Program-made: the position numbers and the translations under genes
Assembly (NCBI RefSeq): GCF_003284725.1
Contig: NZ_PGTO01000001.1
Coordinates: 248,001 to 312,000 of the forward strand
Source of the DNA: Paramagnetospirillum kuznetsovii
GTDB lineage: Bacteria > Pseudomonadota > Alphaproteobacteria > Rhodospirillales > Magnetospirillaceae
Direction of reading: 5' to 3'
DNA length: 64,000 nucleotides
Shown: positions 2,473 to 48,955 of the stretch, in pieces
Layout: each line of letters opens with the position of its first letter
How positions within the stretch are numbered: position 1 is the first letter of the stretch
The notes under the pieces: generated by a model
Told to the model about the DNA's origin: nothing
Databases searched by the model: none
The model's input: the letters and a program-made list of their open reading frames with translations, nothing else

Positions 2473-2592
2473 CGGGAAACTTTTGAGTTTTACCCCATTC
2501 CCCGCTTCGGCCCCAGGGGGAAGTTGCAAATCGTCAAACGGCGCCCGAGGGACAGGGATGGGATAAGACCAGTCGACATTCCGGCGTATAGG

Positions 2593-2650
2593 CCAGGACA
2601 TGGGCCACAGATACACACAGATCCCCGCTGCGCGGGACACAGATGCAAGA
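2593..2650. repeat. CACAGAT-family dispersed repeat, copy 1
   Basis: The stretch reads GGCCACAGATACACACAGAT, then a CCCGCTGCGCGGGA palindrome, then ACACAGATG. The reverse complement of positions 8370-8412 is nearly the same sequence, and the direct core GGCCACAGAT-CACAGAT also ends the inverted-repeat unit at 21874-22311. It lies in the 392-base gap between dapC and amtB, which otherwise holds only another repeat and the amtB terminator. Confidence 0.75.
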
Positions 2651-2699
2651 GGATCTGTTCGCCTGAGGGACAAAGCAGGGAGCGCAGCGACTGGCGCAT

Positions 2700-2798
2700 T
2701 GTCTTTAGACCCGGGCGGGCAATTGCCCGCAGGGAGCGCCCGCGCCTCGTGGCGCGAAAGCCAAGCTGCCGGAGGCAGCGCCCGGCGCCTGCGGGACA
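2700..2798 (-). repeat. CGCCGGGCG REP-like repeat, minus orientation
   Basis: Read on the minus strand this carries ATGTCCCGCAGGCGCCGGGCG, split here as ATGTCCC and CGCCGGGCG, followed by a variable hairpin, then CTTGGCTTTCGCGCCA and GGCGCG. The same ordered blocks recur at 5437-5541, 29775-29861 and 57637-57745 (plus orientation). It abuts the amtB terminator. Confidence 0.65.
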
Positions 2799-2799
2799 T

Positions 2800-2830
2800 A
2801 AAAAAGGGCGCCGGGGTTTCCCCGGCGCCC
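2800..2830 (-). terminator. Rho-independent terminator of amtB
   Basis: On the minus strand a perfect 11-bp GC stem (GGGCGCCGGGG / CCCCGGCGCCC) with an AAA loop is followed by six T residues, 35 bases past the amtB stop codon. Confidence 0.93.
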
Positions 2831-7134: not shown

Positions 7135-8250
7135 ATGACGCGCCATCTCGACGTAACGCCAAAGCCGGAAGCACCGGCGCCCAAGCCCCTGGTGGCGGTG
7201 GACCGGGCCATCACCGAGCTGCGCCGGGGCGCGCCGGTGCTGGTGCGCTCGCCGGTCGGCCGGGTGCTGATGCTGGCGGCCGAGGCGGTGGGCGACGAGA
7301 CCCTGGCGCGCCTCAAGGCCGATGCGGGTTCCGAGCCGATGCTGGCGCTGACCGGGCGGCGCGCGGGCGTGCTTGGCCTGACCGAGTCCGAAACCGGCGT
7401 GTTCCGGGTGGCCGCGCTGGATGGTTTTGATACGGAAACGATAGCTTTCCTGGTGGATCCCTGCGCCGCGAGCCTGGGTTCGCCCGACCTGAATCGCCTT
7501 CAGGTGGCGGCCGCCTCGGGCCTCGAGCCCGCCTGCGTGGCGCTGACCAAGCTGGCGCGGCTGCTGCCCGCGGCGGTCATGGCCGAGGCCACCAGCCATG
7601 CGCCTTTCGACGTGGTTCAGGTGGAAGCCGACGATATCACCGCCTATCAGGTCACCGCCGCCCAGACCCTGCGTCAGGTCAGCGAGGCCCGGGTGCCGCT
7701 GGAAAACGCCGAGAACGCCCGCATCGTGGCGTTTCGGCCCTCCGACGGCGGTATCGAGCATCTGGCCATCATCATCGGCGAGCCCGATCCCGATCAGGCC
7801 ATCTTGACCCGGCTGCATTCGGAATGCTTCACCGGCGATCTGCTGGGTTCGCTGCGCTGCGATTGCGGCGACCAGCTGCGCGGCGCCATCGCCGAGATCG
7901 CCCAGCGCGGCAGCGGTGTCTTGCTCTATCTGGCGCAAGAAGGGCGCGGCATCGGCTTGGTCAACAAGCTGCGGGCCTATCAGTTGCAGGACGAGGGCTT
8001 CGATACCCTGGATGCCAATCTGCAATTGGGGTTCGACGACGACGAACGCATCTATCTACCGGCGGCGCAGATGCTGCGTCTGCTGGGCATCGGCCGGGTC
8101 AGGCTGCTGACCAACAATCCCGGCAAGGTGGAGTCCTTGGCCCGCCATGGCATCGAGGTGGCGGAACGGGTGCCCCATGTCTTCCCGTCCAACGACCACA
8201 ATCAGGGCTATCTGCGCACCAAGGCCACGCGGGGCGGGCATTTGTTCTAG
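7135..8250 (+). CDS. ribA: GTP cyclohydrolase II with degenerate RibB-like N-terminal domain
   Basis: Converts GTP to the pyrimidine precursor of riboflavin. Residues ~170-371 carry the full GCH2 domain: zinc cysteines in SECFTGDLLGSLRCDCGDQL, the GRGIGLVNKLRAYQLQDEG segment and the LLTNNPGKVE stretch. Residues ~20-165 look like a dihydroxybutanone-phosphate synthase domain that has lost its acidic active-site motif, an arrangement seen in alphaproteobacterial RibA proteins of ~370 residues. The gene stands alone, divergent from the response regulator; no FMN riboswitch is visible in the 148 bases upstream. Confidence 0.92.
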   Translation: MTRHLDVTPKPEAPAPKPLVAVDRAITELRRGAPVLVRSPVGRVLMLAAEAVGDETLARLKADAGSEPMLALTGRRAGVLGLTESETGVFRVAALDGFDTETIAFLVDPCAASLGSPDLNRLQVAAASGLEPACVALTKLARLLPAAVMAEATSHAPFDVVQVEADDITAYQVTAAQTLRQVSEARVPLENAENARIVAFRPSDGGIEHLAIIIGEPDPDQAILTRLHSECFTGDLLGSLRCDCGDQLRGAIAEIAQRGSGVLLYLAQEGRGIGLVNKLRAYQLQDEGFDTLDANLQLGFDDDERIYLPAAQMLRLLGIGRVRLLTNNPGKVESLARHGIEVAERVPHVFPSNDHNQGYLRTKATRGGHLF

Positions 8251-8313
8251 GCTGTATCGACAGTCAGGGAATTCGGCTGATTTTGGTTTGGAACGTCTGT
8301 CCAGCAGGAATTT

Positions 8314-8412
8314 TAGCCACAGATGAACACAGATAAGCACAGATGAAGTGAGAGATTTCCTTATCTGTGTCCCGCGCAGCGGGACTCTGTGTGCATCTGT
8401 GGCCCATGTCCC
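8314..8412. repeat. CACAGAT-family imperfect palindrome (MITE-like)
   Basis: The left arm GCCACAGATGAACACAGATA (8315-8334) faces a right arm ending GTGCATCTGTGGCC (8391-8404), with a CCCGCGCAGCGGGA palindrome set into the right half. The arms are the same sequence that bounds the GxxExxY unit at 21874-22311, but here no gene lies between. The element fills most of the 210-base gap between ribA and the ThiE-like gene. Confidence 0.8.
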
Positions 8413-8460
8413 ATCTATCCGCTTGAATGTCGATTGGCCCTGGCTTTCCGGGGCCTAATT

Positions 8461-21873: not shown

Positions 21874-22311
21874 GGCCACAGATGAACACAGATGGGCACA
21901 GATAGCTGTCACAGAACCAACCTTTTGTATTCGATCCGGGGCTTGCCGAAATTGAGGAGCAGCCCCGTCTTGAGCCCACTGGCCCTGAGATAATTCAGGC
22001 ATTGCGCGGTATGAGCCGGATTAAGCGCTTCCACGGATTTGAGCTCAACCACAACCTGTTCGTCGACCACCATATCGGCGATATAGGTTCCGATATCGGC
22101 ACCCTTATAAATCACCTTGAACACTTTTTCACGATCGACGGTCATGCCCGCGAGGATCAATTCATGGACCAAGGCCTTCTGATAGACGACCTCAAGAAAT
22201 CCATGACCCAGGGAATTGGACACTTCGAAAGCAGCGGCCAGAATCCGGTGCGTTAGGGGATCCTTGCCGTCCATGCCGCTCATCTGTGCCCATCTGTGTT
22301 CATCTGTGGCC
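21874..22311 (-). mobile_element. 438-bp inverted-repeat unit carrying only a GxxExxY gene
   Basis: Two perfect 30-base inverted repeats bound the unit: 21874-21903 (GGCCACAGATGAACACAGAT followed by GGGCACAGAT) and 22282-22311 (its exact reverse complement). The GxxExxY gene fills the space: its stop lies five bases inside the left repeat, and its start codon straddles the inner end of the right repeat. No transposase is present. Gene-less relatives of the ends occur at 8314-8412 and 2593-2650. The unit sits within the trpA-accD interval; no flanking direct duplication is obvious. Confidence 0.75.
21909..22283 (-). CDS. GxxExxY-family protein, PD-(D/E)XK nuclease fold
   Basis: A 124-residue protein with the naming motif G28-F-L-E31-V-V-Y34 and a nuclease-like core: D70 (YIADMVVDE) and E80-L-K82 (VVVELKS), the D...ExK arrangement of PD-(D/E)XK enzymes. 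All key residues are present, so it may be active. Family members are small, often repeated in a genome, and of unknown role. The ATG at 22283 uses the final AT of the inverted repeat, so expression depends on the repeat or on read-through from trpA. Confidence 0.85.
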   Translation of the reverse strand: MSGMDGKDPLTHRILAAAFEVSNSLGHGFLEVVYQKALVHELILAGMTVDREKVFKVIYKGADIGTYIADMVVDEQVVVELKSVEALNPAHTAQCLNYLRASGLKTGLLLNFGKPRIEYKRLVL

Positions 22312-23136: not shown

Positions 23137-23251
23137 CCCCTCTCCCAGCGGGAGAGGGTGCCCGTAGGGCGGGTGAGGGAGAATGGTCGCCAAGGGCGTG
23201 GATGGCCGACATCCCCCCCTCACCCCGACCCTCTCCCTCGAGGGAGAGGGG
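23137..23251. repeat. CCCTCTCCC hairpin repeat pair between trpB and trpA
   Basis: CCCCTCTCCC-AGC-GGGAGAGGG, then GGGCGGGTGAGGG, faces CCCCTCACCCCGACCCTCTC at 23215-23234 and CCCTCGAGGGAGAGGG. The two halves are mutually complementary and each also folds alone. This sequence type is scattered in many proteobacterial genomes. Folding of the mRNA here may change the trpB:trpA expression ratio. Confidence 0.85.
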
Positions 23252-23268
23252 GAATCGCCGAATCTCGC

Positions 23269-41740: not shown

Positions 41741-41859
41741 GAACCACGAAGGCGCGAAGGCACGAAGGAGTCGTGAAGACGACGGAGGTGACGGCTCCGG
41801 TGGAAGCGGAATGGTCGGCGTTCCTTCCTCCCTCTTCGTGTCTTCGTGCCTTCGTGGTG
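41741..41859. repeat. ACCACGAAG inverted repeat inside the yej operon
   Basis: The left arm GAACCACGAAGGCGCGAAGG (41741) with CACGAAGG is mirrored by CCTCTTCGTGTCTTCGTGCC (41831) with TTCGTGGT, around ~60 bases of unrelated sequence. Its architecture (short stuttering CACGAAG units facing each other) parallels the CACAGAT family ends. It forms most of the 208-base yejB-yejE gap. Confidence 0.85.
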
Positions 41860-48823: not shown

Positions 48824-48955
48824 AGGGCGCTCCCGCGGTCTAGTCTGGGGACCAGACAAGCACACCCTACGGAGACGATTCGATCCGCAGGAGCTATGTG
48901 GATCCAGCCTACGAATATTCCACAGCCTTGTCAAGCAACAAGAACAAACAGGGAA

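Follow-up and report, generated by a model that had tools for sequence, protein, structure and literature searches.

The GxxExxY nuclease gene between trpA and accD in the window (the whole stretch of 64,000 nucleotides of Paramagnetospirillum kuznetsovii analysed here) very probably works in partnership with the short repeats around it, as do many of its relatives in other bacteria. We observe chromosomal GxxExxY nuclease genes, a single one for each unit type in a genome examined, that lie between inverted arms or next to them; the arms consist of short units in tandem. Palindromes that have matching units but lack the gene are dispersed through the same genome, and the sequence and the period of the unit both follow the lineage of the protein. 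When congeners are compared at one intergenic site, some have a gene unit or a gene-less element there and others do not. This points to a widespread mobile system made of a gene plus a repeat, of which we found no earlier description. GxxExxY proteins are widespread and we know of no function for them, nor do we know of an explanation for tandem palindromes of the CACAGAG, CACCAAG and CGCCAAG types; the link between gene and repeat gives these proteins and these orphan palindromes each a testable partner.

Table 1. Features of the window that bear on the gene-bearing unit and its gene-less relatives
Feature	Position	Strand	Remarks
Left arm	21874..21903	+	Three CACAGATG-type units, period 10, facing the gene; exact 30-nt inverted copy of 22282-22311
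GxxExxY gene	21909..22283	-	124 aa, PD-(D/E)XK nuclease fold; E31, D70, E80, K82 and Q94 invariant in 75 proteins
Right arm	22282..22311	-	Exact inverted copy of 21874-21903; shares two bases with the start codon of the gene
Gene-less CACAGATG palindrome in composite element	8247..8443, ends approximate	.	Outer ends CTAGGCTGTATCGACA... / ...GAATGTCGATTGGCC; taken to be an IS5-like MITE from the target preference that we presume
Degenerate composite	about 2530..2800	.	One CACAGATG arm only, 2606-2645; degenerate ends; G003 without element at the aligned site
Gene-less CACGAAGG-type element	41744..41857	.	Period 8; unit type of gene L031 of the same genome
CCCTCTCCC-type palindromic element	23138..23254, ends approximate	.	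Between trpA and trpB; G003 without element at the aligned site; similar repeats beside part of the relatives' DUF559 genes

The unit and its nuclease

The names trpA and accD are those that the earlier note gave to the open reading frames next to the gene, which served as our queries. The perfect 30-base inverted ends that it described around the gene are indeed there, the two arms being identical as inverted copies; the exact match is 30 nt long and can be extended only with mismatches (36 nt at 94% if these are allowed). Each arm consists of three units with a period of 10, CACAGATGAA, CACAGATGGG and CACAGAT, which point inward on both sides. The gene fills the interior as had been stated, since it starts inside one repeat and its stop codon lies five bases from the other. 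Over the window, CACAGATGNACACAGATG is matched eight times at no more than 3 mismatches, against 0.09 expected.

The protein is a member of the GxxExxY family (TIGR04256 / PF13366), whose names make no mention of repeats. A search of the NCBIfam and Pfam profiles gave a full-length match to TIGR04256 (E 1.6e-42, 144.5 bits against a cut-off of 35) and a match to PF13366 (PDDEXK_3; E 2.8e-40, 137.8 bits against a cut-off of 22), and no others. We aligned it with the proteins of 74 of the 76 usable loci, three loci with an internal stop and one without a stop having been excluded earlier; all 75 proteins match TIGR04256, and the five residues listed in Table 1 do not vary among them. The structure predicted for the window protein (pLDDT 94.1, pTM 0.85) has Cas4 SSO0001 as its top Foldseek match (E 1.1e-4, TM by query 0.50); the four chains at E 0.001 or below are all from this Cas4, while lambda exonuclease, MGME1 and AddAB match more weakly. 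Alignment, structure model and fold thus uphold the assignment to the PD-(D/E)XK type that had been made from D70, E80 and K82. A sequence-profile search of solved structures with the same protein found none at E 1. The dN/dS of the gene is about 0.04-0.10 in six pairs, dS being saturated or nearly so in two further pairs. Because the catalytic residues are invariant and dN/dS is low, the nuclease appears intact and maintained by selection.

PADLOC returned weak Cas4 matches and one weak match to PDC-M36A, and PHROGs a single weak match, to a family of unknown function. With the window protein as sole query, tblastn found matches in 8 of 72,556 plasmid records and in none of 50,697 phage records, counts that are not normalised against other genes; a scan of viral contigs with one peptide pattern found one locus.

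Arms of other GxxExxY genes and their match to protein lineages

The idea that GxxExxY genes elsewhere carry these ends holds for the style of the ends, though with other unit sequences. A profile scan of named genomes gave at least 555 confirmed stretches, and the best 80 of these were taken with no selection by flanks; all 80 were scored, and the arm counts given here are for the 70 loci with full flanks, neighbouring ORFs of the same contigs being the control. Inverted arms with a gapped score of at least 17 are found at 47 of these 70 loci vs 2 of 152 control ORFs, and 23 of the 70 show none at this cut-off; ungapped scoring gives 40 of 70 vs 1 of 152. The score of at least 17 is reached at 50 of 79 loci. 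Among those 50, the upstream arm has three CRCnnAn units in 30 and none in 7, and the units point inward in 40 and outward in 2, with 8 ties. The commonest arm units are CACAGAG, CACAGAT, CGCCAAG and CACGGAG, and some arms follow another pattern (e.g., ACAGGATTAACAGGAT in L127). Arms of the same style occur, among others, in records titled Planctomycetales (L155), Opitutae (L144), Chloroflexi (L140), Cyanobacteria (L192), Spirochaetota (L188), Bacteroidota (L193), Acidobacteria (L202) and Betaproteobacteria (L150). Closer to the window, in its own genome (G000) and 22 relatives, 19 of 32 loci have an ungapped arm score of at least 18. The arms are one-sided at L033, L073, L075, L088, L086 and the second GxxExxY gene of G016, which has a CACGGATG-type repeat upstream only, as does its relative L086 (G010). 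Four-helix-bundle genes (TIGR02436) were also tried as the partner of the repeats and set aside; they were matched in 0 of 60 relatives, an uninformative result given that the control genomes are without a match as well.

The genome of the window has four GxxExxY genes with four different unit types. Three of them lie between arms, of CACAGATG (the window gene), CACGAAGG (L031) and CACGAATG (L034), whereas both arms of the fourth (L033), which form a CACCAAGG palindrome, lie upstream of the gene, with no arm on its downstream side. The four proteins share at most 61% identity, and gene-less elements of all four unit types are found in this genome. The earlier note had also pointed to such ends without a gene, and the genome-wide search confirms that they are dispersed: with up to 2 mismatches allowed, CACAGATGNACACAGATG is found at 100 places and the reversed pattern at 0, and the 14 matching loci that we inspected are gene-less palindromes.

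Protein identity and arm similarity are correlated over 69 loci (Mantel r 0.51), and still are for pairs below 60% identity (r 0.29), with 0 of 2000 permutations as high in each case. The loci are those of the named genomes and relatives whose arms score 17 or higher, so that this set is silent on armless loci, and the test is uncorrected for base composition and organism, for which the comparison within the genus is the better control. Nearest protein neighbours have the same repeat period in 41 of 63 cases (permuted mean 19.4, maximum 40). The correlation is that of a gene and arms that travel together, and common descent accounts for it equally well as selection on specificity. Within the genus, 16 proteins cluster mainly by unit type and not by genome, in a tree in which six of 13 inner branches are open and L101 and L092 are unplaced.

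The gene-less copies can be compared in the same way. Pairs of CACGAATG (one mismatch) occur in 3 of the 3 congeners with a CACGAATG-armed gene and in 0 of the 14 without one (17 congeners), the reversed-pattern control giving 0. When three types are pooled, at least two dispersed places besides the gene's own arms are found in 9 of 11 type-by-genome cells in which the gene is present vs 5 of 40 in which it is absent (Fisher test p 3e-5, for cells that are not independent across related genomes); type by type, CACGAATG alone is below 0.05. Gene types were here assigned by eye from the flanks, with the exception of a partial gene that lies at the end of a contig in G013, whose flank was left out. 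The cells that depart from this association are CACAGATG, with at least two places and no matching gene in three congeners (G009, G010, G011), CACCAAG, likewise in two (G003, G011), and G007, in which both gene types (CACAGATG and CACCAAG) are present with 1 and 0 dispersed places. The prediction that a changed gene-side unit recurs in the dispersed copies failed in G008, where the unit is CACTAAG beside the gene and CACCAAG in the dispersed copies. At L075 of that genome, a site common to four congeners, both arms have gone from CACCAAG to CACTAAG except for one outer unit.

Beyond the genus, stretches totalling about 387 kb from three genomes, gene loci included, were searched for ten unit types and contain four of them, all with a matching gene in the genome concerned: CACCAAG and CACAGAT in G035, CACAAAG in G020 and CACAGAG in G026. 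Gene-less copies in these stretches number three in G035, one in G020 and none in G026. The unit sequence tends to follow the protein lineage and not the genome, and these cognate sets provide a natural series of nuclease-motif pairs in which changes of specificity can be studied.

Intergenic sites and gene-less elements

The trpA-accD interval of 17 congeners is empty in 12, holds a GxxExxY gene in CACAGATG arms in 4 and a gene-less CACGAATG element in 1 (G008). The earlier note had named as the contrary outcome that no relative would have an empty site and that most GxxExxY genes would lack the ends; we found instead both empty sites and, as given above, arms at most of the loci counted. Occupied genomes occur here and there on the accD-trpA tree (for instance, the interval is occupied in G016 and empty in G011, its sister with good support), which implies repeated gains or numerous losses. 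Seven congeners could be read at another gap, which was located from G008. It holds a CACGAATG gene unit with a palindrome on either side in G008, a GxxExxY unit of another type (CACGGATG) in G013, a gene-less CACGAAGG element in the genome of the window and a GGGGGGAGG element in G003, while G012 has 188 bp of other sequence there and G002 and G001 only 42 bp and 28 bp. Two gene-less CACAGATG elements of G016 are likewise missing from G011 at otherwise matching sites.

The gene-less relatives that had been pointed out at 8314-8412 and 2593-2650 are real, and inspection by eye places each within a longer composite element. The CACAGATG copies of about 200 bp are bounded further out by another pair of ends (GGGCCAATCGACATTC and relatives); 19 of the 27 gene-less CACAGATG copies examined in five genomes have at least one such IS5-like outer end. 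In one site comparison, CTAG stands on both sides of a composite copy vs a single CCAG in G014. We take the target of the IS5 family to be YTAR and accordingly read the composite CACAGATG elements, tentatively, as an IS5-like MITE, from their outer ends and from the CTAG at both junctions in that one comparison. Such ends were, however, not seen on CACGAATG and CACCAAG elements, nor, by eye, on the gene-bearing unit. These composite elements are one repeat family riding within another. Since most of the CACAGATG copies examined sit in such a MITE, counting them in this genome is not by itself a measure of nuclease activity. Of the suggestion that short derivatives move in trans, the dispersal is supported, and the case for transport of the two gene-less copies of the window by this protein is weak for the same reason.

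Several details of these elements can be added. The one at 8247-8443 shares with L247, L248 and L258 the layout of a composite, roughly 200 bp long and with CTAGGGCCAATCGACATTC / GAATGTCGATACAGCCTAG as its outer ends, that carries the CACAGATG palindrome and a CCCGCGCAGCGGG-like hairpin, and by eye G003 has a different inverted element at its site. No target-site duplication was seen by eye at the stand-alone arms. The CACGAATG elements of G008 (L261-L264, L266) have arms of about 27 bp in common and, in several of them, unrelated interiors, as if the ends were set around different filler (by eye).

Possible mechanism, rival explanations and known systems

The known system that comes closest is that of REPIN and RAYT. 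According to PMC3116915, short inverted repeats form non-autonomous doublets, a gene is flanked by those repeats, and a genome has several distinctive single-copy genes, each with its own flavour of repeat. The gene of the window likewise stands between copies of a repeat whose inverted doublets occur elsewhere in the genome, and in the genome of the window, the one examined for this, each gene is distinctive and single-copy, as the divergence of the four proteins shows. The enzyme is different: a RAYT is an HUH Y1 tyrosine transposase, whereas the window protein is a PD-(D/E)XK nuclease with no HUH profile match in NCBIfam or Pfam. The repeats also differ, since a REP is a palindrome of 20-40 bp with a GTAG or CGTC tag (PMC3733652), whereas the window arms are made of short tandem units. 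With Cas4, lambda exonuclease and RecB-type enzymes the window protein shares the fold and Q94-x3-Y98, a motif that we take to be theirs. It is shorter than Cas4 (124 residues against about 203). Cas4 has a cluster of four cysteines; the window protein has a single cysteine and is hence without this cluster.

We consider it somewhat probable that the window unit belongs, as the member with the gene, to a family of repeats operating in the manner of REPIN and RAYT, in which the nuclease would cut or trim the arms and host repair would place the segment. The nuclease, with its fold like that of Cas4 and lambda exonuclease, would recognise the tandem units of its own type. It may then cut or trim DNA at the arms, perhaps while replication leaves these single-stranded or lets them extrude as a cruciform. 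Host repair or replication could finally put the segment bounded by the arms, with or without a gene, into another short intergenic gap. Several observations weigh against this reading: no target-site duplication was seen at stand-alone arms, many CACAGATG copies lie in the MITE and may have been moved by another enzyme, dispersed copies and matching genes do not always coincide, the prediction for G008 failed, and some loci have one-sided arms or none at the cut-off. On the mobilising role of the nuclease in particular, which we infer, our judgement is evenly balanced; if it does do the moving, it is a new type of enzyme among those that disperse short bacterial repeats. More tentatively, and with some doubt, one could recognise here a whole class of bacterial mobile DNA present in many phyla, which would encode nothing but a Cas4-like PD-(D/E)XK nuclease. 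This enzyme would read the three tandem units in the inverted ends of its own element and, acting in trans, disperse palindromes without the gene. In such a class the protein lineages and units would form cognate pairs, the element would need no transposase or recombinase of a known type, and DUF559 with the CCCTCTCCC-type palindromes would perhaps be a parallel second class.

The strongest rival, which we hold to be rather unlikely, is that the arms are spread by another enzyme (for CACAGATG, an IS5-family transposase working at the composite MITE's outer ends) and that the nuclease only binds, processes or regulates them, for example by resolving cruciforms. The IS5-like outer ends of the CACAGATG copies and the CTAG on both sides of one of them are what this would lead one to expect, as are the genomes with dispersed copies and no matching gene, and the fold is closest to the end-processing nucleases Cas4, lambda exonuclease and MGME1. 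However, by eye the CACGAATG elements inspected in G008 have no common flank outside the arms and the CACCAAG elements of G000 have only a few bases in common there; the pairing of gene and arms recurs in distant bacteria with changing units, and the gene unit lies at sites that are short gaps in relatives, with no IS5-like ends seen there.

A homing unit, which the earlier note had proposed as one possibility, would have the nuclease cut the empty allele and repair copy the unit in. We hold this to be very improbable, even though the nuclease fold with its intact active site and the presence or absence of the unit at one site would suit it. Taking the arm unit as the recognition site, we found no CACAGAT in any of the 12 empty trpA-accD intervals (15-55 bp), and the same gaps receive unrelated element types; homing is thus not supported at trpA-accD, because the empty alleles are without a recognisable target. 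That the arms are ordinary flanking palindromes, born of chance or composition, has next to no credit with us: bacterial intergenic regions do hold many palindromes, but arms were found at GxxExxY loci far more often than at control ORFs (47 of 70 vs 2 of 152) and the reversed-pattern controls gave 0. The REPIN/RAYT-like reading is the one that we favour.

In full-text searches of literature other than preprints, the matching text held nothing that links GxxExxY, PF13366, TIGR04256 or PDDEXK_3 genes with repeats, and such searches with the letters of the arm repeats found nothing either; for DUF559 with repeats, no DUF559 stood among the matches listed, as far as their text goes. For the TM-ECO repeats, PMC4666352 reports that no mobility genes were found nearby.

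Two further observations concern other parts of the window. Among the DUF559 (PF04480) genes of relatives, 9 of 19 have by eye inverted repeats of CCCTCTCCC/GGGAGGGG type on both sides (L222, L224, L225, L228, L230, L232, L236, L238 and L239), several of the scores being within the null range; DUF559 and the CCCTCTCCC-type palindromes are possibly a parallel pair of nuclease and repeat. The single Rfam match in the window is a DUF3800-IX RNA (RF02968) at 48826-48893 on the minus strand (46.9 bits against a gathering threshold of 36.8), away from the GxxExxY unit.
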